From positions 1 to 40,118 of the IMG/VR virus record IMGVR_UViG_3300031730_000013: a stretch of 40,118 bases of DNA. One strand, given 5' to 3'. Source of the stretch: a virus. Below, piece by piece: positions 13,101 to 34,177 of the stretch (its first letter is position 1; the number at the start of each line of letters is the position of its first letter). The notes beneath the pieces were generated by a model, which saw only the letters and a program-made list of their open reading frames with translations, made no database searches and was not told the DNA's origin. The translations under genes and the position numbers were made by a program.

Positions 13101-13273
13101 AGAGCGCCAGCGCCGCGCTAATCGCTCTCCTCGCGGCATCGAAAGAGTACGCGATGACGGAGACTTACACCTTCACGCTGATCGACGGATCGACGCTCGT
13201 CTACACGGTTGGAGATCCTGATAACGGGACGCAGGCGGACCCGAGCGAGATTCAGGCGCCGATCATCACGTAA
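13097..13273 (+). CDS. N-terminal fragment of a split DUF2163 tail protein
   Basis: A 58-aa product, MKSASAALIALLAASKEYAM then ETYTFTLIDGSTLVYTVGDPD. This is the N-terminus of DUF2163/BR0599-type tail proteins, which normally continue directly into a region reading KRGxxRxxIGxEVD. Here the frame stops instead, with TAATG overlapping the start of an inserted gene. The continuing sequence (PIVKRGTIRNVIGVEVDEIS) appears 1.1 kb downstream at the start of a separate gene. The gene therefore seems to have been broken by insertion, and the two halves may work as separate chains. Confidence 0.75.
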   Translation: MKSASAALIALLAASKEYAMTETYTFTLIDGSTLVYTVGDPDNGTQADPSEIQAPIIT

Positions 13274-14385
13274 TGGACCAATACGTCTTCAGCGCTGGTG
13301 CTCTCTTCTACAAGCCAAGCGGAAATTCTCCCACGCCGATGCAGTTCGGTGCATTGCAAGGGGTCACGCTGACGGCATCTTTCGCTGAGCGCCAGGCCTA
13401 TGGCAGAAATGTCTTCCCTCTCAAGATCATGCGAGGAGCAGGAAAACTGACGGGGCAAGCTCATTTCGCGTCAATCGACGCTCGACTGTTCTCTGATTTG
13501 GTCGTTGGGAACAGCGCCCCATCATCGGGCGCTATCAGGATCGTCACGGACGAGCCGCATACCGTCTCAAGTGCGTCAGCAAATGCGGCCCATGCCGCAA
13601 ATTTCGTCGGCGACCTAGGCGTTGTCAGGGCCTCTAATTCGGCCGCTTACGAGCGTGTGTTGTCGGGTCCTATCGGGCGGCAATATACCTGCAACGAGAC
13701 GACAGGGGTCTACGGATTCGATTCGCCTCAGAACGGCAAAGATATTCTTCTAAGATACTCATGGCAGGATTCTTCATCCGGATCATCGGTCGCACTTCAA
13801 AATCAGCAGCAGGCCGCGTCTCCGTATTTTCAGATAGTTCTCAATGAGAGTTTTCAAGGACAGCAGATGACGGTTGTCCTGAACGCCTGTTGCAGCACAA
13901 AACTTTCAGCCCAATTCAGCAAAGATGATTTCACGATCCCGCAATTCGAGTTTGTCTCTATGCAGGACTCGAACGGGGTTGTCGGAACAATAAGCCTAGA
14001 ATGGCCTAGCGATCTTGAGTTCGCAGGTCAAGTAAATCTCGTCGCTCCTGCTAATTGTGGTCTATCTCCATCGGTCGGCCTGACTATCAGCGGACTTGAT
14101 GCCGCAGCGACATATCTCGTCACGGAGCCGTATGGATTGCCGCAAGTCGCGTGGTCCGCGTTCCCATCGGGTAACTTGTGGCAGCACGCGGTATATATAG
14201 GAAATGGCAATTCGACGCTGTATCAATTTGGCGACGGCATCCAATACTCATCGCCGGAGCAGGCGAGAGCTGCTTTCGTTGGAGGAAACATTACCGGATT
14301 TAGCAACTATACGTTCTGGATAAATGACAATAACCCGTTCGATGACCGCGGCGGCCTATCGGTGGTCATCTGGAAGTATGTCTAA
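13273..14385 (+). CDS. Tail-tube paralogue with C-terminal extension, inserted in DUF2163
   Basis: A 370-aa protein. Residues 1-~245 are a diverged copy of the tail tube protein at 8019-8762. Shared features include FGALQGVTL/LGALQGASV, GRNVFPLKIMRGAGKLTGQA/GRKQFPLALGRGTGKITGKA, QYTCNETTG(V/A)YGF, and FQGQQMTVVLN/FQGKSLTMVLN. The remaining ~125 residues (from DLEFAGQVNL) are new, beta-rich and Gly/Asn/Tyr-rich, and end GGLSVVIWKYV; the family is not recognised. Codon use is clearly less GC-rich than in the neighbours, which points to recent acquisition. It could be a minor or alternate tube subunit carrying a surface or binding domain. Confidence 0.75.
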   Translation: MDQYVFSAGALFYKPSGNSPTPMQFGALQGVTLTASFAERQAYGRNVFPLKIMRGAGKLTGQAHFASIDARLFSDLVVGNSAPSSGAIRIVTDEPHTVSSASANAAHAANFVGDLGVVRASNSAAYERVLSGPIGRQYTCNETTGVYGFDSPQNGKDILLRYSWQDSSSGSSVALQNQQQAASPYFQIVLNESFQGQQMTVVLNACCSTKLSAQFSKDDFTIPQFEFVSMQDSNGVVGTISLEWPSDLEFAGQVNLVAPANCGLSPSVGLTISGLDAAATYLVTEPYGLPQVAWSAFPSGNLWQHAVYIGNGNSTLYQFGDGIQYSSPEQARAAFVGGNITGFSNYTFWINDNNPFDDRGGLSVVIWKYV

Positions 14386-15090: not shown

Positions 15091-15548
15091 TGGAGGCGTG
15101 GCGAACGGCCGTCGTCGAGGAATCGAAGAGCTGGCTTCGGACTCCCTGGGCACATGAGGCCAGAATCAAGGGGGCCGGCGTCGACTGCGGCCAACTGATC
15201 ATCGCCTCATTCATCGGCGCAGGCCTCGTGCCGCATTTCGAGACCGGCTCATACCCTCAGGACTGGATGTTGCATCAGGCCGGAGAGCGCTATCTTGGAT
15301 GGGTCGAGCAGTACCTTGACCGGGTCGACGTTCCGCGGCCCGCAGATGTCGCCGTGTGGCGCTTTGGGAAGTGCTTTTCCCACGGCGCGATCGTCATCGA
15401 TTGGCCGCTCATGATCCACGCGTACAGGCGAGAGCGCTCTGTGGTCTATGGGGACGCAACCAAGGGCAGCATCTCGCGTGAGCATTTGGCAGAGGGCGGA
15501 ACGGTCGACCGCGAGGTGCGCTTTTATTCCATCGCCGGGAGACTCTGA
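15090..15548 (+). CDS. NlpC/P60 family tail-tip peptidase
   Basis: 152 aa with the start at 15090 overlapping the previous stop (TGATG). The active-site Cys33 is in GVDCGQLIIAS and the His98 is in FSHGAIVIDW. Both lie in the usual context of NlpC/P60 cysteine peptidases, which cleave peptide cross-links of peptidoglycan. Placement between DUF2163 and the tip protein is standard for siphophages such as lambda (gpK position), so it likely opens the cell wall during DNA entry rather than at lysis. Confidence 0.85.
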   Translation: MEAWRTAVVEESKSWLRTPWAHEARIKGAGVDCGQLIIASFIGAGLVPHFETGSYPQDWMLHQAGERYLGWVEQYLDRVDVPRPADVAVWRFGKCFSHGAIVIDWPLMIHAYRRERSVVYGDATKGSISREHLAEGGTVDREVRFYSIAGRL

Positions 15549-18331
15549 TGGCAGGCCTGTTCGGCAGCAGCAAGACGATCAACAACACCGAGAACAAGAT
15601 CGGTGCGCTGCGCATTCAGAATTCTTCGCAGGGTCTGCCAATACCCATCGTCATCGGCAAGACGCGCCTAACGTCGAACCTACTGTGGTATGGAGACTTC
15701 ACGGCAATTCCTCACACCGAGAGCCAAAGCTCAGGCGGCAAGGGCGGTGGCGGCGTCACGACCGATACAACCACATACACCTACACCGTAGGATCGGTTT
15801 TCGGTCTGATGGAAGGCCCTTCGATTCAGGCCAATTTCATACAGAGCATCTGGTCGAACAAAGACTTCTACGACTCTTCAAATCTCTCGCTCCTCGGGCT
15901 TAGCGAGTTCCAAGGCACATACGTACAGACGCCTTGGAGCTACCTTACGACCAATCACGCCAACGAAGCGCTCGCGTATCGCGGCACCGTCTACGCGGCT
16001 ACCGGCGCATTCGATCTCGGCGGCAGCGATGGGCTGCCTAATCTTTCGTTCGAGGTGGTCGGGTTTCTGGGGAGCACTGACCAGAACACGGCGAACGTGA
16101 CGAGTCTTCTGCTGACGGCTGACAAGTTCGGCGCGGGCTGGCCGAGCGCTCATCTCGGAAGCCTGACCGAGTTCTCGGCTTACTGTGCCGCAGCGGGATT
16201 CCTGATATCCCCAGCGCTCGTTGCGCAAACGCAAATGTCGTCTCTGCTGACGGCGCTGATGCAGATCGGAAACACCGCTGTCTATTGGTCCGACGATCTT
16301 CTGAAGTTCAAGCCCTACGCCGACACGGCGGTCGGAAGCTACACACCCGACCTGACGGTGCAGTATCACCTCGGGTATTCAGACTTCATGCCGGACCCCG
16401 GAGTTGATCCAGTGGTGCTGGACCGCAAGCGCCAGGCCGACGCGTACAACAGCGTCAAGATCGAGTGCTTAGACCGCGGCAATCAGTACAACCCGTACGT
16501 TGCCGAAGCCAAGGACCAATGGGCGATCGACACTTACGGCCTGCGCCCGATGGAGCAGATCACGGCGCACGCGATCTGCGACCCCGCGGTCGCGCGCACG
16601 GTGGCGCAGACAATCCTGCAGCGCGTCCTGTACGTGCGCAATGTCTACAAGTTCAAGGTCGGCTGGCGCTACGGTCGCCTGGAGCCGATGGACATCGTCG
16701 GCATCACCGACGCGAAGCTCGGACTCGCCGACCAAGCGGTGCGCATCATCAGCATCGAGGAGGACGGCGAAGGGTACCTCTCGATTGAGGCCGAGGAACT
16801 CACGATCGGCGTCTCTACGCCGGGCTCCTACAGCACGCAGGGCTCATCCGGCAGCACGCCACAGAGTGCCGTTCCACCAGGAAACGCCACAGCGCCGGTG
16901 ATGTTCCAGCCACCGCTCGCTCTGACCGGCGGCTCGCCCCAGCTCTGGCTCGGCACGGCCGGCGGCCAGAACTGGGGCGGCGCCGAGATCTGGGCAAGCC
17001 AAAGCGGAAGCTCGTACCAGCGCATAGGCATCGTGACCGCGCCGGCCCGTTTCGGCACGCTCACGGCGAACTTCGCGCTCGGCAGCGACCCGGACACAAC
17101 GAATAGCCTCGCGGTCAACCTGAACGCATCGAACGGCGTGCTGACATCGGCCGCCAATGCCGTCGCAGACGCCGGCGGGACGCTGTCCTATGTGAGCGGC
17201 GCCAACGCCGCGGCGCTCGAGCTTATCGACTACACCACGGCCAACCTCACATCGGCCTTCAACTACACGCTCGGCGGCTATCTCCGCCGCGCGCAGTTCG
17301 GCACCGTGTCGTCTGCGCATGCTTCTGGATCTCAGTTCATGCGCCTCGACGGCGCAGTCGCCGCGGTCGACGTCCCGACCTCTCTCTTCGGCACGATGAT
17401 CTACGTCAAGCTGCTGAGCTTCAACACCGTCGGAGGCGCGAAGCAGGATCTCGCGGACGTTTCCCCATATACGTTCAACGTCGTCGCACAGATCATCACC
17501 GACGGCAGTGGATACCCGTTCTACGCCGACACCTCTTCGACGGCTAACACGCCGGCGAGCGGACACGTGCGCTGGAACAATGCGTCGCAGGCGAATGCGA
17601 CTTCTCTCTACTTCAGCGAGACATCTTCTGCCGGAGCGAATCTCACTACGTACTTGACAAGCGTCGGCAGCCTAGGATTCATCGACCTTCGAGATCCGCA
17701 GGACGCGAACAAGTGGGCGAGCTACAAGATCGTGTCCGGCAGCTCGGCCAACGGCGTGCATACCTTCGGCATCACGCTTCAGGCCAATGGGGTTGCCTTC
17801 CCGAACAACGAGCCGATCACGGCGTCTTTCAATCCAACCGTACCGAACGGTCTCGGCAGTGTCGGCCTCAACATGCCGGCGGCCATTTTCTCGGTCGCCA
17901 ATTCACCGCTCACGTCGAACGGGACGATTGCCGTCACATTCAACGGCGGCGCCAACGGACAGGTTCCGACCTGGTCAGCGAACGGTGTCGTCTGGGCGAA
18001 TCAGAGCGCGTCGTCCCAGTCCAATCTGACGATCAATCCGCAGACGGCGAACTACACGCTCGCGGCCGGAGATTTCAACGTTCCGACCAGCGTGGTCGTG
18101 AACAGTTCTTCCAACTTGGTGCTGACCGTCCCAAGCAATGCCAACCTATCGCTAGCGAATGGCAGTTCGGTGGTGTTCACGAGGCAGGGAAACGGCACGC
18201 TGACTGTCTCTTCGCAGGCCAACGTTACGGTGCACAACACATCATCTAACACGCTGCGCGCTCAATACAGCCCGGGCGCTTTGGTCAAGGTTGGAACAGA
18301 TGAATGGAACCTATTCGGTGATCTGACGTGA
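15548..18331 (+). CDS. Tail tip / host-specificity protein (J-like)
   Basis: A 927-aa protein, start overlapping the NlpC/P60 stop. The first ~430 residues are the conserved tip core (MAGLFGSSKTINNTENKIG; GLPIPIVIGKTRLTSNLLWYG; later WRYGRLEPMDIVGIT and EGYLSIEAEEL). A low-complexity Ser/Thr/Gly/Pro linker follows at ~440-465. The C-terminal half is made of beta-rich repeats with SxxSNLT and NANLSLANGSSVVFTRQGNG motifs, as in tail-tip and fibre-like domains. The C-terminal part is probably exposed for host recognition. The LamG gene follows with a 4-nt overlap. Confidence 0.8.
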   Translation: MAGLFGSSKTINNTENKIGALRIQNSSQGLPIPIVIGKTRLTSNLLWYGDFTAIPHTESQSSGGKGGGGVTTDTTTYTYTVGSVFGLMEGPSIQANFIQSIWSNKDFYDSSNLSLLGLSEFQGTYVQTPWSYLTTNHANEALAYRGTVYAATGAFDLGGSDGLPNLSFEVVGFLGSTDQNTANVTSLLLTADKFGAGWPSAHLGSLTEFSAYCAAAGFLISPALVAQTQMSSLLTALMQIGNTAVYWSDDLLKFKPYADTAVGSYTPDLTVQYHLGYSDFMPDPGVDPVVLDRKRQADAYNSVKIECLDRGNQYNPYVAEAKDQWAIDTYGLRPMEQITAHAICDPAVARTVAQTILQRVLYVRNVYKFKVGWRYGRLEPMDIVGITDAKLGLADQAVRIISIEEDGEGYLSIEAEELTIGVSTPGSYSTQGSSGSTPQSAVPPGNATAPVMFQPPLALTGGSPQLWLGTAGGQNWGGAEIWASQSGSSYQRIGIVTAPARFGTLTANFALGSDPDTTNSLAVNLNASNGVLTSAANAVADAGGTLSYVSGANAAALELIDYTTANLTSAFNYTLGGYLRRAQFGTVSSAHASGSQFMRLDGAVAAVDVPTSLFGTMIYVKLLSFNTVGGAKQDLADVSPYTFNVVAQIITDGSGYPFYADTSSTANTPASGHVRWNNASQANATSLYFSETSSAGANLTTYLTSVGSLGFIDLRDPQDANKWASYKIVSGSSANGVHTFGITLQANGVAFPNNEPITASFNPTVPNGLGSVGLNMPAAIFSVANSPLTSNGTIAVTFNGGANGQVPTWSANGVVWANQSASSQSNLTINPQTANYTLAAGDFNVPTSVVVNSSSNLVLTVPSNANLSLANGSSVVFTRQGNGTLTVSSQANVTVHNTSSNTLRAQYSPGALVKVGTDEWNLFGDLT

Positions 18332-19095
18332 TCCTATTCTCGACAGCACCACGCCGCCTTACCGTCTCACGCGAGCGCCAGCGCGGAAACATCGCGCCCG
18401 TGTTGCTTGGAGTGATTGCCTCTGCCTACCGTAAACGGCGCCTTGGCGATTCGGCTACGTATCGCGCAGCCGTGATTGCAGATTCCCCGGCCGGCTATTG
18501 GCGCCTGGCCGAGACGACTGGAAACACCGCAAACAATGAGATCGGCGGGCAGCCGAATGGAACCTACACAGCCAACTTCACGCTCGGCGGTTCGACGCTG
18601 CTGAGCGGAATTTCTTCACTCCAATTGACCGGGTCAGGCTATGTTCAGCTTAGCTCGGGTTATTCATTCACTAGCAACTTCACCATCGAGGCGCTGGTCC
18701 GACGTGCGGGTACGAACGCCGCTCACGGCACCGTCATGATGCGAAGGTTCAACGCGTATATGTTCGCTGCCCAGGATAGTCAATTAATCCTGAACAAAGA
18801 TCAGAGCGCTGTCGTCGGCACGGCGAATGTCACCTTAAACGATGATTGGCCGCATCATGTCGCGGTCACGGTGACTTCGGGGAATGTCTGGACTCTTTGG
18901 CACAACGGCGCCAATATGGCATCGGGATCGACAACAGCGTTCGGCGCCGGCACCACGCCGTTTTTCATCGGCACCGACTTCTCATCCGTTTTTGCCGACC
19001 AATTCATCGGCGGCTTGGGAGAAGTCGCGATCTACAGCACTGCGCTATCCTCCGGGCAGATACTTGCGCACGCGCAAGCTGCTGGACAGGCTTAG
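18328..19095 (+). CDS. LamG/concanavalin-like lectin tail protein, probable receptor binder
   Basis: 255 aa; the start overlaps the tip protein stop. Residues ~50-250 form a LamG_3/concanavalin A-like domain: SPAGYWRLAETTGNTANNEIG, FTSNFTIEALVRR, NDDWPHHVAVTVTSGNVWTL, and GGLGEVAIYSTALSSGQI. Such domains bind carbohydrates or host-surface ligands. The gene ends the rightward morphogenesis operon and meets the leftward glycosylation operon tail to tail, with one base between the stops. Confidence 0.85.
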   Translation: MILFSTAPRRLTVSRERQRGNIAPVLLGVIASAYRKRRLGDSATYRAAVIADSPAGYWRLAETTGNTANNEIGGQPNGTYTANFTLGGSTLLSGISSLQLTGSGYVQLSSGYSFTSNFTIEALVRRAGTNAAHGTVMMRRFNAYMFAAQDSQLILNKDQSAVVGTANVTLNDDWPHHVAVTVTSGNVWTLWHNGANMASGSTTAFGAGTTPFFIGTDFSSVFADQFIGGLGEVAIYSTALSSGQILAHAQAAGQA

Positions 19096-19096
19096 A

Positions 19097-19801
19097 TCAT
19101 CCCGCCAGGAATCCGCCGTCGACAACCATTGTGGTCCCAGTGGTCCAGCGCGACGCGTCGCTGAGCAGGTACAGGACCGCATCCCGAACCGCCTCAGCCG
19201 TGCCGAAGCCGAGCGGGTGCTTAGCGGCGTAGGCCGCGCGCGCTGTCTCCGGCATGCGACCGGTCACGCGGGCATGCATGGGGCTCTCGAAGGCACCGGC
19301 AGCCACGCAGTTGACGCGGATGCCACGCGGCGCCAGCTCGATCGCCGCGCAGCGCGCCATGGCCTCGATTGCAGCCTTCCCGGCGCTATAGGCTGCCATG
19401 CCGGGCGTGCCGCGGTGCGCGGCGACGCTGGACATCAAGACGATGCTGCCGCCGTCGGCCATGACGCCCCTGGGGGCTGCCGCGCGCAGGATAGCGAAGG
19501 CGCTGTCGGCAGCCATCATGGCGGCGCGATATTGATCATCGGAGGTCAGGCGCAGGGGTTGCACCAGCTCGACACCGGCGCAGTGCACGATGCCTTCGAA
19601 TAGGGGCACCCTAGCGACGTCGTTGGCGTCCGGGAACTGCCGATGGACAGCGAATTTCACCGCCGATGTCACGCTAGCGCAATTCATAAAGTCGGCGTCT
19701 CCGCGACCGACAAATTCGAGCAACGACCCATACCCGCGTAGCGCGTCTCCAATCGCCGCGCCGAGGCCGCCGGTGGCGCCGGTGATGAGGTAGCGCTTCA
19801 C
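19097..19801 (-). CDS. Short-chain dehydrogenase/ketoreductase (FabG-like)
   Basis: A 234-aa Rossmann-fold SDR. It has the NAD(P)-binding motif TGATGGLG (residues 8-15), HCAG near residue 73, the catalytic Ser in VLMSSVAAH (~124), and Tyr138/Lys142 in YSAGK. The C-terminus GTTMVVDGGFLAG is typical of FabG-type 3-oxoacyl-ACP reductases. The KAS III-like and ACP genes lie just upstream in the same operon, so a role reducing a short ketoacyl-ACP is likely; reduction of a keto-sugar is the alternative. The start overlaps the previous gene (ATGA). This is the last gene of the operon. Confidence 0.85.
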   Translation of the reverse strand: MKRYLITGATGGLGAAIGDALRGYGSLLEFVGRGDADFMNCASVTSAVKFAVHRQFPDANDVARVPLFEGIVHCAGVELVQPLRLTSDDQYRAAMMAADSAFAILRAAAPRGVMADGGSIVLMSSVAAHRGTPGMAAYSAGKAAIEAMARCAAIELAPRGIRVNCVAAGAFESPMHARVTGRMPETARAAYAAKHPLGFGTAEAVRDAVLYLLSDASRWTTGTTMVVDGGFLAG

Positions 19802-20145
19802 TGCAGTCGCCGGTGCACCAGCACCGCCGCTCCGGTGTCCGGGTCTATGTGCTCAACCGTGGGGCCGCACCAGCAGTCGGCGCTGGCGACGTGTGCGCGC
19901 TGCGTCCTGGCGTCGAGGTGGGACTGCAGCACGTGGATCTGTTGCCGGGCGCGCTGCAGTGCACCGGCCATTTCCGCGTACTCGGCGGCGTCCCCACGCC
20001 GGGCCTCGGACATCATGCCGACAGCGTTGCGCAACGACGCCAGCTCGCGCTCCCGATCGCACCAGCGTAGCACGATGGCGCGCAGGCTCTTCCAGAAAGG
20101 TGCCGTACCGTGGCCTGGGGTAGCTTTGTCGTAGGACCGCATCAT
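19798..20145 (-). CDS. Small phage protein, coiled coil with CWC motif (115 aa)
   Basis: Starts at the first of two adjacent ATGs (20145), which overlaps the KAS stop (TGATG). The middle of the 115-aa product is helical (RERELASLRNAVGMM, EMAGALQRARQQIHVLQ), and the end has DCWCGPTVEHIDPDTGAAVLVHRRL. This C-terminal pattern is common in phage cargo genes. The function is unknown. It is one of several phage-type small genes inside the sugar/acyl operon. Confidence 0.55.
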   Translation of the reverse strand: MMRSYDKATPGHGTAPFWKSLRAIVLRWCDRERELASLRNAVGMMSEARRGDAAEYAEMAGALQRARQQIHVLQSHLDARTQRAHVASADCWCGPTVEHIDPDTGAAVLVHRRLQ

Positions 20146-21119
20146 CACACCTCGATGAGTTCGCAAACATCCATGCGCATGCCGCTGATGACTGCGCCGG
20201 CCCACGCCCACCCAGATCCAAACCCGAAGAGCGCGAACCGACTCAGTTGCGCCGACTGCTGCCCGACCATGTCGCACAGCAGCAGCGGTATCGAAGCGCA
20301 TGAGCAGTTTCCGAAGCGCTCGACGTTGCTCGGGATCTGCGCGGTCGTGAAACGCTCAAGCAATTTCGACTTGCGCACGACCTGATCGAGCATAAATCTG
20401 TTGGCCTGATGGAATAGGAGATAGTCCGGCGACGGTGCGATATTGAGCACGTCTTCAATCAGCCGCGGCACTTGTTGCAGCGCGAAGCTCATGACGCCGG
20501 CGCCATCCATGTGCAAGAACTCCCCGCGCTTCTGTTGCAGCTGCTCGTTTCTCATGCCGTCGTTGCCGAGCACGAAATGCGAGAGCACGCGGTCCCCGAC
20601 GACGGCCGTTGCGCTTCCGGCGTCGCCGAAGAGCGGGCCGGTTGCGCGGTCGAACGGATCGGTGATGGAGCTCGATGTGTCGCCGACTAGAAGCAGCACG
20701 CGGTCGCCGCTATAGCGCGCCAGTTGCATTGCCAGCCACAGGCCATAGACGTAGCCGGCGCAGGACCAGTTGACCTGAAGTGCGGGCGCGCTCTGCGGGA
20801 GGTTCAGCGAACGATGCAGGCCGAAAGCCGAAGCCGGCACCGCAAGGCCTGGCGTCTGCGTGACGTAGACCAGCGCACGAACGCTCGACGACTTCCATTC
20901 CAGTTCGGCCATCAGCCGCTGCGCCGCAGCCAGGCACATTGATTCCGTCGTGTCTTCGGCACTGGCGCGGCGTCGGTGCTGCACGCCGGTGAGACGAGCG
21001 GCATCATCGGCGCCCGGCGGGAGTTGGATGTTCGCGACTGATCCCTTCGGCACGACCGTGACGACGCCCTGGATGGACGCGTTAAGCGCCTCGGCCAGGT
21101 TGCTGTTGCGGGTGATCAT
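20145..21119 (-). CDS. 3-oxoacyl-ACP synthase III-like (KAS III/FabH-like)
   Basis: A 324-aa thiolase-fold enzyme with a complete catalytic triad: Cys120 in QVNWSCAGYVYGL, His237 in LLFHQANRFML, and Asn271 in ERFGNCSCASIPL. KAS III enzymes condense an acyl-CoA with malonyl-ACP. Here an ACP gene lies directly upstream and a ketoreductase downstream, so together they could make a short beta-hydroxyacyl-ACP. This gene set (ACP, KAS III, ketoreductase, aminotransferase, acyltransferase) is known from bacterial flagellin-glycan islands, where the acyl group modifies an amino sugar. Finding it between phage genes is unusual. Confidence 0.85.
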   Translation of the reverse strand: MITRNSNLAEALNASIQGVVTVVPKGSVANIQLPPGADDAARLTGVQHRRRASAEDTTESMCLAAAQRLMAELEWKSSSVRALVYVTQTPGLAVPASAFGLHRSLNLPQSAPALQVNWSCAGYVYGLWLAMQLARYSGDRVLLLVGDTSSSITDPFDRATGPLFGDAGSATAVVGDRVLSHFVLGNDGMRNEQLQQKRGEFLHMDGAGVMSFALQQVPRLIEDVLNIAPSPDYLLFHQANRFMLDQVVRKSKLLERFTTAQIPSNVERFGNCSCASIPLLLCDMVGQQSAQLSRFALFGFGSGWAWAGAVISGMRMDVCELIEV

Positions 21120-21126
21120 CGCGGCC

Positions 21127-21357
21127 TCACAGCCCGGCCAGCGCCATCAGATCGGCAACGGTCTTCGCCTTCGAGATCGCGACGCCGTCGACCTCGCGGC
21201 CGCAAATAGAGTCGATCTCGGCGACGACCATGACGATGGACATCGAATCCCAGAGACTGGTCGACAATAGATCAGTCGTCTCGGTGACCTGGGCCTCAAG
21301 AATCTCGCTCAGTTTCGCCAGCAGGGCCGTTCTTGTCGTCGCCATGATCGCTTCCAT
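21127..21357 (-). CDS. Acyl carrier protein
   Basis: A 76-aa product from ATG 21357, which has an AGGAG Shine-Dalgarno 7 nt upstream; a second ATG at 21345 is possible. It has the short four-helix ACP pattern, with the phosphopantetheine Ser in LWDSMSIVMVVAEID (DSM in place of the usual DSL). It lies 7 nt upstream of the KAS III-like gene, so it probably carries the acyl chain made by KAS III and the ketoreductase. It would need a host phosphopantetheinyl transferase. Confidence 0.8.
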   Translation of the reverse strand: MEAIMATTRTALLAKLSEILEAQVTETTDLLSTSLWDSMSIVMVVAEIDSICGREVDGVAISKAKTVADLMALAGL

Positions 21358-21814
21358 CTGGTGCTCCTGTCTTGGTGGTGGTGGGTAGTGGCGGCTCGCG
21401 CCCTTCAAGCACGGCTCGTAATGCCTTGTCGTAGTCGATGCTCAGCGCGGCGCAGATGCCCCGCACCGTGAGCTCGATCATCACAGCGCCGGCGCGACAG
21501 CCCTCCTTGTCGTCGACCATAAGCGCGAGGTCCAGCGCGTTGCGCCCGGCCTCGATCAGCGACATGGACGCGGCGACGAAGTCGTCTGCCCCGGGCTCAA
21601 AGTCGTGCTCATCGACGGCGCGAGCGACCACGAGCATCGTCTCGCACACGGAGCGCACGAGCTCCGGCATGCTGCCCTTCTGCAGCGCGCCGAACATGAT
21701 CTCGTCGGTCGACTCGCGGATGGCCTTGCGCGTGGGTGCTGTGGGCAGCGGACCGGATCCGCGGTCGATCGGTTCGGAGCGGCCGGCGCGGATCAGGTCG
21801 AGTTCTTGCTTCAT
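21296..21814 (-). CDS. Phage protein of unknown function (172 aa)
   Basis: The ATG at 21814 overlaps the stop of the 122-aa gene. The middle is helical (ELVRSVCETMLVVARAVDEHDF, SLIEAGRNALDLALMVDDKE), with conserved-looking MIELTVRGICAALSIDYDK. The C-terminus is Gly/Asp/Lys-rich and its last ~20 codons overlap the ACP start. It has no membrane segment or recognised domain. It seems to be one of the ordinary phage small genes in the operon. Confidence 0.5.
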   Translation of the reverse strand: MKQELDLIRAGRSEPIDRGSGPLPTAPTRKAIRESTDEIMFGALQKGSMPELVRSVCETMLVVARAVDEHDFEPGADDFVAASMSLIEAGRNALDLALMVDDKEGCRAGAVMIELTVRGICAALSIDYDKALRAVLEGREPPLPTTTKTGAPDGSDHGDDKNGPAGETERDS

Positions 21815-22179
21815 GGACGCCCCATAAAATTGGCGTAGGCATTGCCAGCCATCGCTGCCACGAGTCCGGCATCGGCGATGGCTTGACGCACTCCATCCGG
21901 GAATTTGTAGCAGTCGTGCGGGAAATCACCGTACTCGACGCACACGCAACCATCGCCGCATGGCGCTTCGGCCTCGTGCTTCACGATGACGCCAAGACGC
22001 TCCATCGCATCCTGCGCGCTCCCGCCGTCCACGTCCGTAAGCGTGTCCCGGAATTCGCGCGCGCACCAAGCACCAAACGCCGCCAGCTTCAGCATGTCGG
22101 CCAGCGCCGTTTCCGTCCATCCGTGCACGATGCCTTGCGCGCAGTCAACCGTCAGGTCCGCTTCGGGCAGCATGGTCAT
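21811..22179 (-). CDS. Conserved phage small protein (122 aa)
   Basis: The ATG at 22179 overlaps the glycosyltransferase stop (ATGA). The 122-aa product has the pattern AAFGAWCAREFRDTLTDVDGG, SAQDAMERLGVI, CGDGCVCVEYGDFPHDCYKF then PDGVRQAI. I recognise this as a widespread but unnamed phage cargo family. The Cys/His cluster (CGDGCVC...HDC) suggests metal binding. Function unknown. Confidence 0.6.
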   Translation of the reverse strand: MTMLPEADLTVDCAQGIVHGWTETALADMLKLAAFGAWCAREFRDTLTDVDGGSAQDAMERLGVIVKHEAEAPCGDGCVCVEYGDFPHDCYKFPDGVRQAIADAGLVAAMAGNAYANFMGRP

Positions 22180-24149
22180 AGCGCCGGCGCCATCGCACCA
22201 ACGACTCCGGGCGCAGTTCTGAACATGCGATTGCCGCTGGCCTGAATCTCCTCGTGCTGCTCGAAGATGGTCTCGACTGCGGCCAGGAAGCCGCCAACGG
22301 CATGCGGCCGAGGCTGGCCGTAGAACAGCGCACGCAAGTCGGTCGCGAGAAGCTGATCGCGCAGGCTCTGCCGCTTGTGATGGTCGACGATCAGGTCAAC
22401 GGCGCGCTCGATGTAGTCCGGCACGTTGGAGGCCACAAGCCAGTCATCGAGGCCGACATGCCGAAGCTGCATCGCGTCGAAGCGCTCGTGCGGCTCCTTG
22501 CCTTCCATCGCCAGCACCGGGATGCCGAGCAGCATCGAGTCGACGTTCGAGTTCGTGCCGCCGAACGGGAAAGTGCCGAGGTGAAGATGGCAGCGGCGCA
22601 GATGGTCCATGTACTGGCTGTAGTGCGCGCGCTCGTAGATAAGCGCCGTCGGCAGGTACTCGCGGATCTCGGCCGCTCCCTGGTGAAGGTTGGCGCCGGC
22701 CATGTTGATGAAGAAGTGGAACTCGACTTGCGGCGCGGGAGATCCGAAATCACGATTCGTTCGCTTCACGCGCTGATCGATCTCTCGAAGAGCATCCATG
22801 AACCTCGCGTTGAGCTTGCACAGCATCGCCGGCACAGCGACCCGCACAACGGCCGGCAAATCCTCGCGCAGCGGCTCGGGCAGCACGGCGTCGGTCCGCA
22901 TCACGTACCGCGCCGAGCCGAACGGCATTGTCACGACCTTCTCGGAGAAGAGCTCGGGCTCGGCGATCGCCCCCTCTTCGCAGACGACGTAGTCCATGCA
23001 CGGAGAGCGACTTGATGCCGGGTGGCCCAGCGTCATGAACTGGATCGGCGCGAGGCGTACAGAGGCCAGCACGACCCACCACAGCGCCATGCCGAGCGAC
23101 GGGTAGTAGATCATGTCCGGCGCGATCTCCGTCACCTCTGCGATGAGCTTCGCGAGGATCAGGTTCTCCGAAGGCACCTCGCGCCACTCGTCGAAGGTGG
23201 CCTTGCCGATATCGTCGATATCGGTCGAGCGGCTCATGCCGACCAGGTAGAACCGATCGCGCAGTTGCTTGATGATCGGCGCGTAGCAGCGGTACATGGC
23301 GTGCTGGCTGCCGAACCACTCGCAGCAGACGAGGATCACCGGCTTGTCGCGCCTATCCTTGATCTTGCGGCGCCCGAGCACGCGGTCGATGCGCGGCATG
23401 GCGACCTGATGGTGATCGAGGAAGCGCGCGAAGATGCGATGAATCGTCGCCTTGGCATCGTGCTTGTCGCTGCGCAGCGCGTAGCTCGTGTACATGTAGG
23501 CGTCCGACAAGGACGGCAGCACGGCCGGCGACGGGATCACGTCGGCAAACAGATGATGCAGGCCCAACAGGAACTCGTGCCGCTCCTGGGCCTTCGGATG
23601 GATCGTCAGGAGCGCTGAAAGCATCCCGGCCCACAGCGAGAAGATCAGCTGCGGCTGCTTCTTGAAGGTCGCTTCGAAGTCCATGTCGAAGCTCGATCGC
23701 AGAGAGTACGTCACGAGGAACTTCACCAGCGAGGCGCCGTTCTCGAAACGCAGCTTGCGCACATCGACCTCCTCACCCGGCATCGTTGCCAGTTGGGCGA
23801 GCAGGTGATCGGATGTGCCATAGGCGCTCTGCCGGAAGCAGACGTCCATGATCGCGTGTTCGCTCGCGAAGGTATCCAGGCCGTCCTGAGAGATCGAGAA
23901 CAAAGGATCGGCCAGCATGGCGATGACGGCCGAGCAGAAACGCGTATAGAGCTGCCTGTAGAGGTCTGGCACGGGCGGGTAGCCGATGAAGACGCCTCCG
24001 ATCTTGATGCGGCGCAGGGCCTGGACAAGCAACTGACTCGCCTCTTCGTGCTTGCGCTGGTAGACCGCGCGCTCGAACTGCTCAAGCGAGACGTTGTGGA
24101 TCATGACGGTGCTCGGCGCGATTGCCGAGGCTTGGTTCTCTTCGCTCAC
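22176..24149 (-). CDS. HMW1C/GT41-like protein glycosyltransferase
   Basis: A 657-aa product from GTG 24149, which has a strong AGGAGG Shine-Dalgarno and overlaps the LuxR stop (GTGA). The N-terminal ~270 residues are helical. The C-terminal half is a GT-B domain with TLGHPASSRSPCMDYVVCEE (around residue 375) and GTFPFGGTNSNVDSMLLGIP (around residue 525), then KEPHERFDAMQLRHVGLDDWL. These are the nucleotide-sugar and acceptor-site patterns of HMW1C-like GT41 enzymes, which put hexose on Asn of adhesins, and of related O-GlcNAc-type transferases. Length matches HMW1C (~620 aa). It probably acts in the cytoplasm on a virion or host protein, with a sugar made by the operon. Confidence 0.8.
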   Translation of the reverse strand: MSEENQASAIAPSTVMIHNVSLEQFERAVYQRKHEEASQLLVQALRRIKIGGVFIGYPPVPDLYRQLYTRFCSAVIAMLADPLFSISQDGLDTFASEHAIMDVCFRQSAYGTSDHLLAQLATMPGEEVDVRKLRFENGASLVKFLVTYSLRSSFDMDFEATFKKQPQLIFSLWAGMLSALLTIHPKAQERHEFLLGLHHLFADVIPSPAVLPSLSDAYMYTSYALRSDKHDAKATIHRIFARFLDHHQVAMPRIDRVLGRRKIKDRRDKPVILVCCEWFGSQHAMYRCYAPIIKQLRDRFYLVGMSRSTDIDDIGKATFDEWREVPSENLILAKLIAEVTEIAPDMIYYPSLGMALWWVVLASVRLAPIQFMTLGHPASSRSPCMDYVVCEEGAIAEPELFSEKVVTMPFGSARYVMRTDAVLPEPLREDLPAVVRVAVPAMLCKLNARFMDALREIDQRVKRTNRDFGSPAPQVEFHFFINMAGANLHQGAAEIREYLPTALIYERAHYSQYMDHLRRCHLHLGTFPFGGTNSNVDSMLLGIPVLAMEGKEPHERFDAMQLRHVGLDDWLVASNVPDYIERAVDLIVDHHKRQSLRDQLLATDLRALFYGQPRPHAVGGFLAAVETIFEQHEEIQASGNRMFRTAPGVVGAMAPAL

Positions 24150-24391
24150 GCTCTTCCTCCTGAAGCAATCATTTCGGACCACACAGGTGCTCGGACGAGG
24201 AGACCTTCTTTCGCCGCGACAACAGCAGGCTCTCCGCGCGATCCGACATCGAGCGCGCGGTATAGGCGCTTCACCTGCTCATGCACCGTCGATCTATGTA
24301 GGCCGATGCGTTCTGCGATCTCGCGCTCGTAGAGGCCGGCGCAGAGCATGCGGATGATTGCTCGCTGCTGCGGAGACAAGACGGCGCTCAC
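24146..24391 (-). CDS. Single-domain LuxR/GerE-type HTH regulator
   Basis: 81 aa consisting of one LuxR-type HTH: LSPQQRAIIRMLCAGLYERE, IAERIGLHRSTVHEQVKRLY, then RALDVGSRGEPAVVAAKEGL. No receiver or ligand-binding domain is present. It overlaps both neighbours (ATGA with the aminotransferase, GTGA with the glycosyltransferase), so it is co-expressed with the operon. A close paralogue with the same C-terminal VAAKEGLLVRAPxW is at 31088-31324. It may control the operon or the late genes. Confidence 0.8.
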   Translation of the reverse strand: MSAVLSPQQRAIIRMLCAGLYEREIAERIGLHRSTVHEQVKRLYRALDVGSRGEPAVVAAKEGLLVRAPVWSEMIASGGRA

Positions 24392-25440
24392 GCGATGGCC
24401 ATTTCAAGCGTTCGGCAAACATAGGCGACATCGTCTTCTGTCAGCGACGTATGGAACGGCAGGCCTAGCGAATGCTTGCGCAGGTCTTCCGTGATCGGCA
24501 GCGACGGCGCTGAACTGCGCCCGGCGAACTGTGGCAACTCGTCGATAAACGGTCGATACCATTGCTTGGTCGCAACGCCCCGCTCTTGCATGCACAGGCC
24601 GACGTATCCGGCGAGCCGGCTGGCGGGCAACTTGATGACCAGCAAGGATCCGGAATCATCGGGAGGTCGCTGCAGCGTCACCGGAATGCCTTCGAGGCCG
24701 CGGCGGTAGGCCCCGGAGACGATTCGCATGCGCGCCGTTGTCAAGATCCGGCGCGAGGCCGACAGCGATGCGAGCGCGACCGCGGCGTGATACTCGGACA
24801 TCTTGGCATTCGTACCGTAGTGACCGAAGGCGATGATCTCGCGGACGCGCTGAAGCAAGAGATCATTGGCGCCGCTGACCACGCCGCCCTCTCCTGCACC
24901 GATGGTCTTTGTGGCATGCAGGCTGAAGGTCGTCAGCACAAGCGGATGACGGGCTGCCTCTTGTTGCGGCAGGGCGCCGGCCGCATCGATCACGACCGGA
25001 ATGCCAGTGTCTTGTGCGAACTTGCACCAGGGGTCAGTCGGGACCGGCATTCCGAACGCGGCGACCGGCACGACAGCGCACTCTCGCACGGGTATGCCTT
25101 GCGCGATCTCAGGCGTTAGCTGCCAGGTGAGCGGATCGACATCGCATAGGATGGGTCTGAGGCCTGCATTCCACACGGCCTGCCCGGTGCCGACGAACGT
25201 CATCGCCGGGACCAGGACAGGGGCGCGAGGAGGCAGGTCAAGCGCGCGCAGGGCGGACTCGATGGCCAGCGTCCCGTTGCTGACTGCGACGGCACGATAT
25301 CCCAACGCGAACGCAAGCTCGGATTCCAACTCGCGCACCAGCGGACCGCCGTTGGTGTAGATCTTCGCGGCGTCTATGCGCAGCAGGTACGGGCGCAGCT
25401 CGTCCGCTGTCGGCATGTCGGGGACAAGAAGTTTGATCAC
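24388..25440 (-). CDS. DegT/DnrJ/EryC1-family sugar aminotransferase
   Basis: A 350-aa PLP enzyme. The PLP Lys178 is in TFSLHATKTIGAGEGG, the cofactor Asp152 in VIDAAGALP, and the N-terminal YTNGGPLVRELESELA and SNGTLAIESALRAL are family-typical. DegT-family enzymes (VioA, PglE, ArnB types) transfer an amino group from glutamate to a nucleotide-bound keto-sugar. No 4,6-dehydratase is in the window, so the keto-sugar would have to come from the host. The start overlaps the DUF2591 gene (ATGA). Confidence 0.85.
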   Translation of the reverse strand: MIKLLVPDMPTADELRPYLLRIDAAKIYTNGGPLVRELESELAFALGYRAVAVSNGTLAIESALRALDLPPRAPVLVPAMTFVGTGQAVWNAGLRPILCDVDPLTWQLTPEIAQGIPVRECAVVPVAAFGMPVPTDPWCKFAQDTGIPVVIDAAGALPQQEAARHPLVLTTFSLHATKTIGAGEGGVVSGANDLLLQRVREIIAFGHYGTNAKMSEYHAAVALASLSASRRILTTARMRIVSGAYRRGLEGIPVTLQRPPDDSGSLLVIKLPASRLAGYVGLCMQERGVATKQWYRPFIDELPQFAGRSSAPSLPITEDLRKHSLGLPFHTSLTEDDVAYVCRTLEMAIA

Positions 25441-25829
25441 AACTCGACCTCTTCGCCGAACTTGCTGGCGACGTAGGCGCGCATCGCGGCGATGAGCAGT
25501 GTTGGACCGAAAGCAGATGTCCGAGTTTCTCCATCGTCATTGAATGCGCCAGGTCCAACCTCTGCGGTCCAAAAGAATCCGCTACCGTCATCGGCAGGGT
25601 CTGACGGACCGGCAGACTTGTCGCATGAGGTGCCGATGCGCTCGCGCTCGATGATCTCGAAGCCATCATCCGCGTTGGTTGACGGTCGATAGGCATCACC
25701 GCAAACAAAAGGACCGCCGGCGGCATAGCAAGTCGATCTATCGGCGGTGACATGCCATTCCCAGCCCTGCGCATTCGCCACCGCTGCATCCAGCAGCGCG
25801 CCCTCGAGTTCGCTGACCTTGTACTTCAT
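25437..25829 (-). CDS. DUF2591 (NinX-like) phage protein
   Basis: 130 aa starting MKYKVSELEGALLDAAVANA and ending PTLLIAAMRAYVASKFGEEVEL, the characteristic ends of DUF2591 proteins, which occur in many phages (NinX-like). It usually sits in phage early or cargo regions. Here it separates the aminotransferase from the small upstream gene, with overlaps on both sides. Function unknown. Its presence shows that the sugar/acyl operon is embedded in true phage context. Confidence 0.85.
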   Translation of the reverse strand: MKYKVSELEGALLDAAVANAQGWEWHVTADRSTCYAAGGPFVCGDAYRPSTNADDGFEIIERERIGTSCDKSAGPSDPADDGSGFFWTAEVGPGAFNDDGETRTSAFGPTLLIAAMRAYVASKFGEEVEL

Positions 25830-26008
25830 GATTGGTTCTGCTCTCGATTGAATGCCGCAAGCGCCACATCCGATGTTTGATCTTGAATACGGCGCTGCTC
25901 CACCAGATCAAGTTCTTGGTCCGCAGACCGATTCGGCCATTCGCGCATGATCGCCTCAAGCACCGGATTCAGTCGCTTGAGCGGAGAAGGCGTCGGCAGC
26001 GAACTCAT
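25826..26008 (-). CDS. Small protein of unknown function (60 aa)
   Basis: ATG at 26008, just 4 nt after the Rieske stop, with a GGGTGAAGCG ribosome-binding region. The 60-aa product starts MSSLPTPSPLKRLNPVLEAI and is charged, with EWPNRSADQELDLVEQRRIQ. It overlaps DUF2591 by ATGA. The upstream open part of the same frame lies over the Rieske gene and is a shadow. No domain recognised. Confidence 0.45.
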   Translation of the reverse strand: MSSLPTPSPLKRLNPVLEAIMREWPNRSADQELDLVEQRRIQDQTSDVALAAFNREQNQS

Positions 26009-26012
26009 CGCT

Positions 26013-26903
26013 TCACCCGGCCGATCGATTCTCGAATTCCAAAGCCGCATGCGCCTCTCGGAATCTTTCGATGCGATCGTCCTTCGGGCCGAGGCGACCT
26101 CGACGGCCGCGCGGCACCAATGCGCAGATGGCAGCATCCTCGCGGAAGACGCGCTCGTTCGTGGCGGCGACAGTCGAGAAGAAATGGTTCAGCCGGGCCG
26201 GCGCGCTAGCCTGCACGAACAAGCGGCTGATGAAGTCCGTTCGGCCATCAGCCCGGGGCAGGTAGTGCTGCATCGAATAGGTCCAGCCGCGCGTCGTCGC
26301 GATGCAGGCGTACGGGAAGAGGTGAGCATGCGCGTAGTCGAAGGGCAGTCTGCTCTCGAACTGGCGGCCGATACGGTCCAGTTGGGCGCCCTTCATGGAC
26401 TCGAAGTATTCGACCGATGAGCCTTCGACGAACCTATCCAACATCGTGCGCGATAGGCCGAGCGTGGCCAGCGTTTCCGGGTGCACGTGCGCGACGTGCT
26501 CGTTGTCCAGCGCGTTCTCGACTGCGACGGTCCAATGGCAGTCCATGACGAAGCGCACTGCCGAGTGCGGCCGCAACGCGCCCAGGCTACCGCCGGTCGG
26601 GTCAACAGGATCGCGAACGCGGAACGCGTCCTCGCTGAAGAAGAGAAGCTCGCCGGCCCAATCCATCGAGAAGCGATTCACATCCTTGGCGCGCGCGCGC
26701 CTGCCGTGGTAGGCGCAGACCGGCGCTTGATTGCCCCGGCCATCCGAATAGATGCGCGCGCCGCGGTGCGGGCACAGGCCATCCCACACCACGACATCGT
26801 CGTCGAAGTTGGTCGCCACAACCTGGTCGCCGCGCCATGGAAGCGCAACGAAGTCGCCGGGGTTTGCGAGCTCGCTGCGGTGCGCGAGAAGATGCCAGGT
26901 CAC
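26013..26903 (-). CDS. Rieske non-heme iron oxygenase
   Basis: A 296-aa protein with both parts of a Rieske oxygenase alpha subunit. The [2Fe-2S] ligands are Cys44/His46 (LCPHRGAR) and Cys63/His66 (PVCAYHGRR). The mononuclear iron motif is ENALDNEHVAHVH (Asp133, His136, His141). Such enzymes hydroxylate or otherwise oxidise small molecules using electrons from a reductase, which is not present here and would have to come from the host. In this operon it could oxidise the acyl group or the sugar. The start overlaps the acyltransferase gene (ATGA). Confidence 0.85.
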   Translation of the reverse strand: MTWHLLAHRSELANPGDFVALPWRGDQVVATNFDDDVVVWDGLCPHRGARIYSDGRGNQAPVCAYHGRRARAKDVNRFSMDWAGELLFFSEDAFRVRDPVDPTGGSLGALRPHSAVRFVMDCHWTVAVENALDNEHVAHVHPETLATLGLSRTMLDRFVEGSSVEYFESMKGAQLDRIGRQFESRLPFDYAHAHLFPYACIATTRGWTYSMQHYLPRADGRTDFISRLFVQASAPARLNHFFSTVAATNERVFREDAAICALVPRGRRGRLGPKDDRIERFREAHAALEFENRSAG

Positions 26904-27664
26904 GCGATCGCCTTCGCCGGCACGCCGAACACCGTAGCGCCTTCCGGGACGTCACGACACACCACAGCGCCTGCCCCAATCGTTGCGCCATCGCCGATTC
27001 TGACCTTCGGCAGCACCTTGGCACCCACGCCAAGCGACACCCCGTCGCCGATGCGCACGCCGCCCGTCAGGCAGACGTAGCTGGCGAAAGTGCAGAAATC
27101 ACCGACAACGCAGTCGTGCCCGATGCTCGAGTACGTGTTGAGGATGACGTGTCGGCCGATCGTCGTGCGGTCCGAGACGAGCGTGACCGGGAAGAGCAGC
27201 GCGCCGTCGCCGATCTCGGCCTGGCCGATGATGCTGGTCGGGTCGATGTACTGCGCGAGCATCTTTCCGGCCAGGGAGTGGACGATCTTCGCCCGGGCGG
27301 CCGGGTCGGCGACCGCGACCATCACGCGGTCAGCTGCGCCGACGGCATCCGGCGCCAGCGCGCCGACGATGCCGCGCAGATCGAGGTCCGCCGCGGTGCC
27401 GGTCAGGAACGCGTCGTCGAGGAACCAGATCGGTGCCTCGGCGTTCCATCGCCGCATCCAGCTCGCCAGCTCGCGGCCCAGCGCGCCGGCGCCGGCGATC
27501 AGCGTGCGCGTGCCGATCCCCTCGCCGCGCATGCGCCCGAGCGCGCGGTACAAGGTGCTCGGTGCGATCCCCTCTTGGCGAGCGCTTTCGTTGGCGCCCT
27601 GGCCGCCCGACAGATGCCGGACCAGCGCCCGCTCGGTGGCCGAAGACATGCGACTGCTTTTCAT
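26900..27664 (-). CDS. NeuD/PglD-like sugar N-acyltransferase with N-terminal HTH
   Basis: The C-terminal ~200 residues are a NeuD/PglD-type acyltransferase: a Rossmann-like part (TRTLIAGAGALGRELASWMR) and then a left-handed beta-helix of hexapeptide repeats (IIGQAEIGDGALLFPVTLVS; IGHDCVVGDFCTFASYVCLT; GVRIGDGVSLGVGAKVLPKV). The His in SSIGHDC is the likely catalytic base. The first ~50 residues (RALVRHLSGGQGANESARQE, then GIAPSTLYRALGRM) form a helix-turn-helix not normal for this family. Starts at 27664, 27649 or a GTG at 27682 are possible. This is the first gene of the leftward operon and would acylate the aminotransferase product. Confidence 0.8.
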   Translation of the reverse strand: MKSSRMSSATERALVRHLSGGQGANESARQEGIAPSTLYRALGRMRGEGIGTRTLIAGAGALGRELASWMRRWNAEAPIWFLDDAFLTGTAADLDLRGIVGALAPDAVGAADRVMVAVADPAARAKIVHSLAGKMLAQYIDPTSIIGQAEIGDGALLFPVTLVSDRTTIGRHVILNTYSSIGHDCVVGDFCTFASYVCLTGGVRIGDGVSLGVGAKVLPKVRIGDGATIGAGAVVCRDVPEGATVFGVPAKAIA

Positions 27665-27712
27665 GGACGCGCAGTCTGACACGAGCAGTCGCGTCGCGCA
27701 ACCGCTTGCTTC

Positions 27713-30840: not shown

Positions 30841-31326
30841 GTGAAGGTGTGGCTCAGCAAGCATGCCCTGCGCGACGGCACCGTCAAGCAGGCGGAAGCT
30901 GAGCCCGCCAGCGGCGAATGCATTGCCGTCCGCGTCGACGGGCGCCTGAGAGACTACTTCTCTCGCGAGTGGCACCCGACCCGCGAGGAGGCCATAGCCA
31001 GAGCGCAGGAGATGCGTGACGCGAAGGTGCGCAACCTCCTGCGTCTGGTCGCCCGGCTTGAGGCGATGTTGACGCGATACCAGACCATCAGCGCGCCTCC
31101 GCGACGAGTCTTGACCACAAGGGCGCCCGCACGAGAAGGCCTTCCTTGGCTGCGACGACTGCGAGCTCACCGCGCGATCCGACGTCGAGCACGCGGCAGA
31201 TGCGCTGTACCTGCCCTTGAACCCAGCGTCTCGGCAAGCCCAACCGCTCGCCGATCTCGCGGTCGCGCAGGCCGCTGCAGACCATGCGCACGATGGCGCG
31301 TTGCTTGGGAGAGAGCGAGGTCATAG
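30841..31326 (+). CDS. Conserved phage small protein; C-terminal half probably not native
   Basis: GTG start. The first ~80 residues (KVWLSKHALRDGTVKQAEAE; YFSREWHPTREEAIARAQEM; RNLLRLVARLEAML) match a common phage family that normally ends near this point. The frame stays open to 31326, but that part lies antisense over the LuxR-type gene at 31088-31324 and is Arg-rich shadow-like sequence. The reading may have lost its native stop by junction with the leftward block. Function unknown. Confidence 0.5.
   Translation: MKVWLSKHALRDGTVKQAEAEPASGECIAVRVDGRLRDYFSREWHPTREEAIARAQEMRDAKVRNLLRLVARLEAMLTRYQTISAPPRRVLTTRAPAREGLPWLRRLRAHRAIRRRARGRCAVPALEPSVSASPTARRSRGRAGRCRPCARWRVAWERARS
31088..31324 (-). 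CDS. Single-domain LuxR/GerE-type HTH regulator, second copy
   Basis: 78 aa: LSPKQRAIVRMVCSGLRDRE, IGERLGLPRRWVQGQVQRIC, RVLDVGSRGELAVVAAKEGL. About 60% identical to the LuxR-type protein at 24146-24391, including the C-terminal VAAKEGLLVRAP that goes beyond the HTH. It is the last gene of the leftward region before the convergent rightward operon. The two paralogues could bind similar sites, such as the CAAGTGGT-type palindrome. Confidence 0.75.
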   Translation of the reverse strand: MTSLSPKQRAIVRMVCSGLRDREIGERLGLPRRWVQGQVQRICRVLDVGSRGELAVVAAKEGLLVRAPLWSRLVAEAR

Positions 31327-31349
31327 TTCGGCCTCGGCGCGCTTGAGCA

Positions 31350-31637
31350 TCATCCGCCCCAATGCGCCCGCCCAAGCGGCGATGCCATCTCTGCCTGCAC
31401 TGCGCGCCACATGCGTTCGAGGCCGGTGCTTGGAAGCCAGACCTCACCATCGCGGATGACGTGCCACAGGCGCACGTCTCGGCCATGCGGCTTGAGGACG
31501 CAGTCAAAGCGGTAGCCGTTGATGCGCAGGACGAATTCGCCTGGCTCTCGCATGTCGTCGCGCAGCCCGGGCGCCTGCCGTGAGGCGATGTCGACCTCTT
31601 CACGAGTCGGCCAGTGCGATGACGCTTCGTTGAGCAT
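31350..31637 (-). CDS. Small phage protein (95 aa)
   Basis: ATG 31637 (MLNEASSHWPTREEVDIASR); no strong Shine-Dalgarno is seen, so a later start such as MREPGEF is possible. The middle reads FVLRINGYRFDCVLKPHGRD, a beta-hairpin-like segment. No domain recognised. It lies just outside the left boundary of the cassette array and 25 nt before the LuxR-type gene. Confidence 0.45.
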   Translation of the reverse strand: MLNEASSHWPTREEVDIASRQAPGLRDDMREPGEFVLRINGYRFDCVLKPHGRDVRLWHVIRDGEVWLPSTGLERMWRAVQAEMASPLGRAHWGG

Positions 31638-33937: not shown

Positions 33938-34177
33938 TCACGCCCGCGTTGTTTCAATCGTCACGCCGTGGTGATCAGCTACCAGAGTCTGCACGCCACC
34001 GAAGGCAGCAAGCAACTCGTCGGCCACTTCCTCATGGAAACCTTCGCTGATCGCTTCCACCTTCGCCGTGATCTGTTCGACCGGGATGACATCGCGTGTC
34101 TTGATGCGCAGCCGGTACTTGATCCGAAGACCGTTGTTCGGGCAGTTTGTGAAGAACTCGGTTGTATATGCGTTCAC
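33938..34177 (-). CDS. Cassette 6 gene B: small protein (79 aa)
   Basis: GTG 34177 (MNAYTTEFFTNCPNNGLRIK) overlaps the stop of the DpdA-like gene (GTGA). The product has YRLRIKTRDVIPVEQITAKV, then FHEEVADELLAAFGGVQTLV and HHGVTIETTRA. I recognise the pattern from other phage and cassette ORFs, but no function is known. The longer open frame upstream is a shadow. Confidence 0.6.
   Translation of the reverse strand: MNAYTTEFFTNCPNNGLRIKYRLRIKTRDVIPVEQITAKVEAISEGFHEEVADELLAAFGGVQTLVADHHGVTIETTRA

Follow-up and report, generated by a model that had tools for sequence, protein, structure and literature searches.

In Pseudomonas syringae pv. tabaci, flagellin carries N-(3-hydroxybutanoyl)-2-O-methyl-viosamine, a product of the viosamine island, which includes vioA, vioB, vioS, vioR and acp (PMC3927599). 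Enterobacterial flagellin islands combine a GT41 glycosyltransferase with sugar, NeuD, acyl carrier protein (ACP), FabG or acyl-ligase genes (PMC4875605). Few systems of protein glycosylation are known from phages. In mycobacteriophages, both the capsid and the tail tube proteins are described as bearing glycans (Freeman et al. 2023, cited in PMC12619734). Among the titles listed for phages together with HMW1C or GT41, there was no phage-borne case of either. An operon of 13 genes on the minus strand of the IMG/VR virus record IMGVR_UViG_3300031730_000013, whose whole length of 40,118 bases is called the window here, probably serves to synthesise an activated 4-amino-4,6-dideoxyhexose with an N-acyl group and to transfer this sugar to protein, with a virion protein as the likeliest acceptor.

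The operon spans 19097-27682, or ends upstream at 27664 if the first gene starts at its second methionine. Families were assigned via sequence searches of Pfam, NCBIfam and the PDB, and PHROG matches were also used. From 27682 down to 19097 the genes are as follows:

26900-27682, minus strand: NeuD/PglD/VioB-like sugar N-acyltransferase of the hexapeptide family, with a GHD histidine (NCBIfam TIGR03570, 171.9 bits against a cut-off of 160.8)
26013-26903, minus strand: VanA-like Rieske non-heme iron oxygenase (Pfam Rieske, VanA_C and Ring_hydroxyl_A)
25826-26137, minus strand: small open reading frame (ORF) of uncertain start, given as the longest ORF; overlaps the NinX gene by 4 nucleotides (nt)
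25437-25829, minus strand: NinX/DUF2591 phage protein (Pfam PF10765, E 5.7e-15; phrog_4389)
24388-25440, minus strand: VioA-like DegT sugar aminotransferase (Pfam PF01041, E 1.4e-52) with a HATK..GEGG pyridoxal phosphate-lysine motif
24146-24391, minus strand: LuxR/GerE-type helix-turn-helix (HTH) protein of 81 amino acids (aa) (Pfam GerE, E 3.9e-8)
22176-24182, minus strand: HMW1C/NGT-like GT41 protein glycosyltransferase of 668 aa (Pfam HMW1C_N and GT41 above cut-off, full length)
21811-22179, minus strand: p21811, a small protein with no Pfam or PHROG match; 4-nt overlap on each side
21296-21814, minus strand: p21296, a conserved helical protein (AF2 model all helical, pLDDT 85)
21127-21408, minus strand, true start probably at 21345-21357: ACP with a DSM site, aligned with PP-binding proteins
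20145-21119, minus strand: KAS III-like 3-oxoacyl-ACP synthase (Pfam ACP_syn_III and ACP_syn_III_C; PDB 4efi, E 4.5e-61)
19798-20145, minus strand: small ORF whose ATG overlaps the KAS III stop
19097-19801, minus strand: FabG-like short-chain dehydrogenase/reductase (SDR), predicted 3-oxoacyl-ACP reductase (Pfam adh_short_C2, E 7.9e-40; FabG-like phrog_3142)

Eight of the 12 junctions are overlaps of 4 or 1 nt, so that the block resembles a single translationally coupled operon; the remaining gaps lie between -62 and +7 nt. Scans for promoters and terminators scored no higher than on shuffled sequences. The initial annotation, made from the letters alone, had described 13 leftward, mostly overlapping or closely spaced genes, and this description holds. 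The enzyme families and the DUF2591 protein that it named were recovered with Pfam and NCBIfam, and the ACP by alignment. The window ACP itself has no Pfam match; it aligns with PP-binding homologues at the same position in contigs L003, L004 and other phages, which share a conserved DS[ML] or ESL serine.

Equivalents of VioA, VioB, VioS (KAS III), VioR (3-oxoacyl-ACP reductase) and ACP, as found in the viosamine island and in the flagellin glycosylation island of P. aeruginosa PAK, are all present in the phage operon. The likeness to Pseudomonas flagellin islands that had been noted in the initial annotation thus stands for the five sugar and acyl genes (PMC3927599), but not for the transferase. 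Where the P. syringae island has a 1173-aa VioT and a VioM methyltransferase, the phage operon has a GT41 enzyme and no VioM (Pfam gave no methyltransferase match among its genes). In addition, it contains the Rieske oxygenase, p21296 and interleaved phage genes, and in the window it has tail, portal and early genes of the phage around it instead of flagellin. Lacking VioT, VioM and flagellin linkage, it falls outside the P. syringae kind of island as defined. By analogy, it would work like a flagellin viosamine island that is carried by a phage and fitted with an HMW1C-type transferase. The enterobacterial islands, which are host flagellin loci with a SPINDLY-type GT41, come close in their logic to a second type of phage module described below, whereas the phage module is phage-borne and its GT41 is of the HMW1C type.

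The comparative case for the predicted sugar and acyl pathway is strong. It draws on observed gene content, synteny, intact motifs, family assignments and a single phage GT41 clade. The PDB matches of the NeuD-like protein include VioB (7txp), and the enzyme is predicted to N-acylate a 4-amino sugar. The best NCBIfam match of the aminotransferase is DesI, a dTDP (deoxythymidine diphosphate)-4-dehydro-6-deoxyglucose aminotransferase, with a score under the cut-off. In seven phage copies, the Rieske residues C44/H46/C63/H66 (CxH/CxxH) and the mononuclear iron residues H136/H141/D256 are invariant, as are C120/H237/N271 in seven copies of KAS III. The Ser-Tyr-Lys motif of the SDR is present, with arginine in place of lysine in L002. 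The catalytic residues on which the earlier reading had been made to depend are thus intact throughout the window enzymes (SDR Ser-Tyr-Lys, KAS III Cys-His-Asn, DegT lysine, Rieske sites and NeuD histidine). With 40-60% of residues differing between most copies, the retention of catalytic sites points to selection on function. An extra N-terminal HTH-like segment is seen on NeuD in the window (26900-27682) and in L002 (8371-9126), where it gives a weak HTH_29 match, and is absent from L003 and L009.

The GT41 enzyme shares HMW1C_N and GT41 domains with the HMW1C/NGT proteins (NGT, protein N-glycosyltransferase) and aligns end to end with enzymes of the Actinobacillus pleuropneumoniae type, residues 30-628 matching PDB 8p0o and 3q3e with E values of 1e-73 to 1e-75. 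The phage enzyme is distant from these, belongs to a separate clade and has no adhesin partner. NGT uses a uridine diphosphate (UDP)-hexose as donor, whereas the genes linked to the phage GT41 suggest a dTDP-amino sugar. In a tree of 27 cellular sequences and 17 phage sequences, the latter representing two or more unrelated types of phage, the phage GT41s formed one branch (support 99/99, recovered in 100% of bootstrap trees) with all cellular sequences outside. The phages therefore appear to hold an old lineage of their own and not the results of repeated recent captures.

Substrates, order of steps, acyl length, the roles of the Rieske enzyme and p21296, acceptor and benefit are drawn here from pathway knowledge. 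dTDP-4-keto-6-deoxyglucose would be supplied by host RmlAB in the window phage, or by phage RmlB in several relatives, and would be transaminated by the VioA-like enzyme. KAS III would form a short 3-oxoacyl chain on the phage ACP, and reduction by the SDR would give the 3-hydroxyacyl-ACP, from which NeuD/VioB may transfer the acyl moiety to the amine at position 4. The Rieske oxygenase, with host reductase or electron carriers, is predicted to hydroxylate the sugar or the acyl group. The soluble GT41 would then move the dTDP-linked sugar onto protein in the cytosol, with a head or tail protein of the virion as the likeliest target, modified ahead of particle assembly or in its course, and the particle surface may thereby be masked or altered. 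Homologues of p21296 adjoin the module in L002, L003, L009, L010, L015, L021, L022 and L028. Both types of module have p21296 close to GT41, so the simplest guess is that it is a GT41 partner. A known enzyme was rejected as its identity, the good structural model giving only weak MazG/HisE-like fold matches, none of them significant. Its homologues are too little conserved for a profile scan.

An IMG/VR scan with the single GT41 protein gave no match, and a VioA query followed by a GT41 profile succeeded. With VioA, 10 IMG/VR contigs were found, and a GT41 and a NeuD-like gene lie close by in all 10. The GT41 profile found 18 IMG/VR contigs and 19 genome contigs, and one betaproteobacterial metagenome-assembled genome (MAG) contig among the matches bears phage genes. 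Four phage contigs, L002, L003, L009 (with RmlB and other ORFs inserted) and L028, have the order NeuD-Rieske-VioA-GT41-p21296-ACP-KAS III-SDR. L028 is a MAG contig that also contains phage portal and tail genes, and the downstream part of the module was found in L015 and L052. As these phages have diverged (38-61% protein identity), the shared order is more than chance. A KAS III profile found five phage contigs, each with a GT41 module.

A second module type (L004-L008, L010 and L020) contains VioA, usually RmlB, GT41, NeuD, an AMP-ligase, a Gfo/Idh oxidoreductase and ACP, and in several contigs a methyltransferase and a GT2-radical SAM protein; at 10226-11995 of L005 the latter appears to be a GT2 glycosyltransferase-radical SAM fusion. 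RmlB of L004 scores above the TIGR01181 cut-off for dTDP-glucose 4,6-dehydratase, which supports dTDP-4-keto-6-deoxyglucose as the start of the pathway. In L023, VioA is absent from the 39 kb read. A PhyH-type dioxygenase, a second likely hydroxylase, lies ahead of GT41 at 9210-10043 of L023, where Rieske is also in the module. Overall, related GT41s and sugar genes recur in about 20 environmental phage contigs. Among the cultured phages of INPHARED, no relative of the window GT41 was found, and the DegT and KAS III matches were weak. Homologues of the window tip protein in IMG/VR have the module nearby in a minority only, which suggests that the module is accessory.

The two alternative cassettes, KAS III/ACP/SDR/Rieske and AMP-ligase/ACP/Gfo-Idh/methyltransferase/GT2-radical SAM, suggest selection for variable particle chemistry. 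Tentatively, the phage GT41 lineage may be a dedicated, monophyletic protein-glycosylation family, common to unrelated phage types and served by interchangeable sugar-decorating cassettes that would give particles variable coats of acylated amino sugars. If the proposed pathway is true, it is an unusually complete viral glycosylation pathway, with its own acyl-ACP, an acylated dideoxy-amino sugar and a phage-specific HMW1C-like transferase. Virion glycans are established in mycobacteriophages, which have different hosts, whereas those of the window phage are proposed; its sugar, further, would be N-acylated with the phage's own ACP and KAS III. As a source of protein glycosyltransferases the operon is also new, and these enzymes may use acylated dTDP-amino sugars.

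The case for a virion protein as the acceptor is moderate. In L024 and L025, which represent another phage type, GT41 is part of the virion operon and separates the head genes from the tail genes, in the order head-tail adaptor/portal, putative scaffold, major head protein, small genes, GT41, tail protein and fibre. The L025 phage has NeuD-like and VioA-like genes immediately upstream of its terminase genes (terminases read from sequence). Both arrangements favour a virion acceptor, although in the window the operon is convergent with the late genes. The general lack of integrase counts in the same direction. Searches for integrase gave no match in the window or in six of seven other virus records, and a partial one in the seventh (G003); these negatives are limited by fragmentary records and by other routes to lysogeny. 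MAG G001 gave many integrase matches, as expected for a bacterium.

As a working model, the initial annotation had placed the sugar on a virion tail protein, naming the LamG adhesin or tip next to the operon, or on a host surface protein, so that phage adsorption may change. A virion acceptor is favoured by the above, but these two proteins are unproven candidates. Both belong to a plus-strand siphovirus-type tail cluster (tail tape measure protein, DUF2460, hub, tip and LamG protein) that is adjacent to the operon, as had been stated, lies convergent with it and ends 2 bases short of the SDR stop:

15548-18331, plus strand: tail tip/host-specificity protein, possible acceptor, unproven (Pfam Phage-tail_3; phrog_1101)
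18328-19095, plus strand: LamG-domain virion-type protein, possible acceptor, unproven (Pfam Laminin_G_3; phrog_8510 virion structural protein)

In several phages with the module, the LamG position after the tip is taken by an unrelated small protein. The post-tip LamG proteins of the window (18328-19095), L012 (14543-15991) and L028 (9527-10330) share an N-terminal motif like QRG.I.P.LLGVIA.

A number of observations weigh against the proposed pathway and its acceptor. The tip contains 22 NxS/T sequons against about 12 in shuffles, with an observed-to-expected ratio of 1.5 in module phages and 1.03 in others. The reversed motif [ST]xN occurs equally often (21 in the tip), and the pooled forward/reverse ratio in tips is 0.96 with the module and 0.90 without it; the enrichment was therefore rejected as evidence for a tip acceptor. 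Single tip sequons judged by eye to be conserved were also dropped, the N25 site being absent in L015 and L052. Tip or LamG as the acceptor is a guess. Neither RmlA nor RmlB was seen in the 40-kb window. GT41 scores far under the equivalog cut-off for UDP-glucose:protein N-beta-glucosyltransferase (NCBIfam NGTferase NF049992, E 1.1e-89, 301.7 bits against 1000), so that donor and linkage may differ from those of NGT. The operon, further, lies on the strand opposite to the late genes and contains NinX and HTH genes, which suggests that it may be expressed early in the window phage.

An early-type strand with NinX would suit a different outcome of the same pathway, in which a host protein such as flagellin is modified during infection, with superinfection block or surface change as the result. 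In a Pseudomonadales MAG (L041, 2263-12999), two flagellins, fliD, fliS, VioA-like, GT41 and methyltransferase-like genes stand in a row, so the cellular GT41-VioA pair adjoins flagellin there, and the sugar gene set is that of flagellin islands. More widely, a VioA-like gene is often adjacent to the cellular relatives; GT41 adjoins flg genes in L037 and L040, and flagellin is about 4 kb away in L044 (flagellar gene names at these four loci were read from sequence). As no flagellin signatures were found near the Burkholderiales GT41s, the flagellar link depends on L037, L040, L041 and L044. Such loci make protein the expected class of acceptor, which counts for the main reading too. The phage encodes no flagellin, so its enzyme would require a host acceptor if flagellin specificity were retained. 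However, GT41 lies inside the virion operon in L024 and L025, the phage enzymes form one clade apart from the cellular ones and not a series of captured flagellin enzymes, and the scarcity of integrases makes a lysogenic-conversion benefit doubtful. A host acceptor is thus considered unlikely.

Attachment of the acylated sugar to lipopolysaccharide or another surface glycan, amounting to seroconversion, seems highly improbable. O-antigen synthesis also uses dTDP-4-amino sugars and NeuD-type acyltransferases, but the transferase here is a soluble protein glycosyltransferase of the HMW1C/NGT type, and Pfam gave no match to membrane glycosyltransferase, flippase or polymerase families among the operon genes. 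There is similarly little likelihood that the end product of the operon is a small acylated metabolite or modified DNA, with GT41 acting on a target other than protein. DNA-modifying phage glycosyltransferases are common (PMC12619734). The window has a tRNA-guanine-transglycosylase-like gene on its minus strand (34174-34923; 249 aa; phrog_887 queuine tRNA-ribosyltransferase, E 1e-65; possibly a DpdA-like DNA/tRNA base modifier), and p21296 weakly resembles nucleotide pyrophosphatase folds. Against this, GT41 accompanies the pathway throughout, and GT41 enzymes of known activity modify protein. Transfer of an N-acyl amino sugar to protein, as also proposed in the initial annotation, is the preferred reading and is supported by families, intact motifs and synteny.

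Two sets of paralogues were also seen in the window. The GerE-type HTH protein of the operon (24146-24391) has a relative at 31088-31603 on the minus strand, with 49 of 71 residues identical. On the plus strand, 8019-8762 and 13273-14385 are phrog_8234 paralogues, the second with about 130 extra C-terminal residues and lying where the GC content of the window is lowest (0.54). L028 likewise has a second phrog_8234 copy, between hub and DUF2460.

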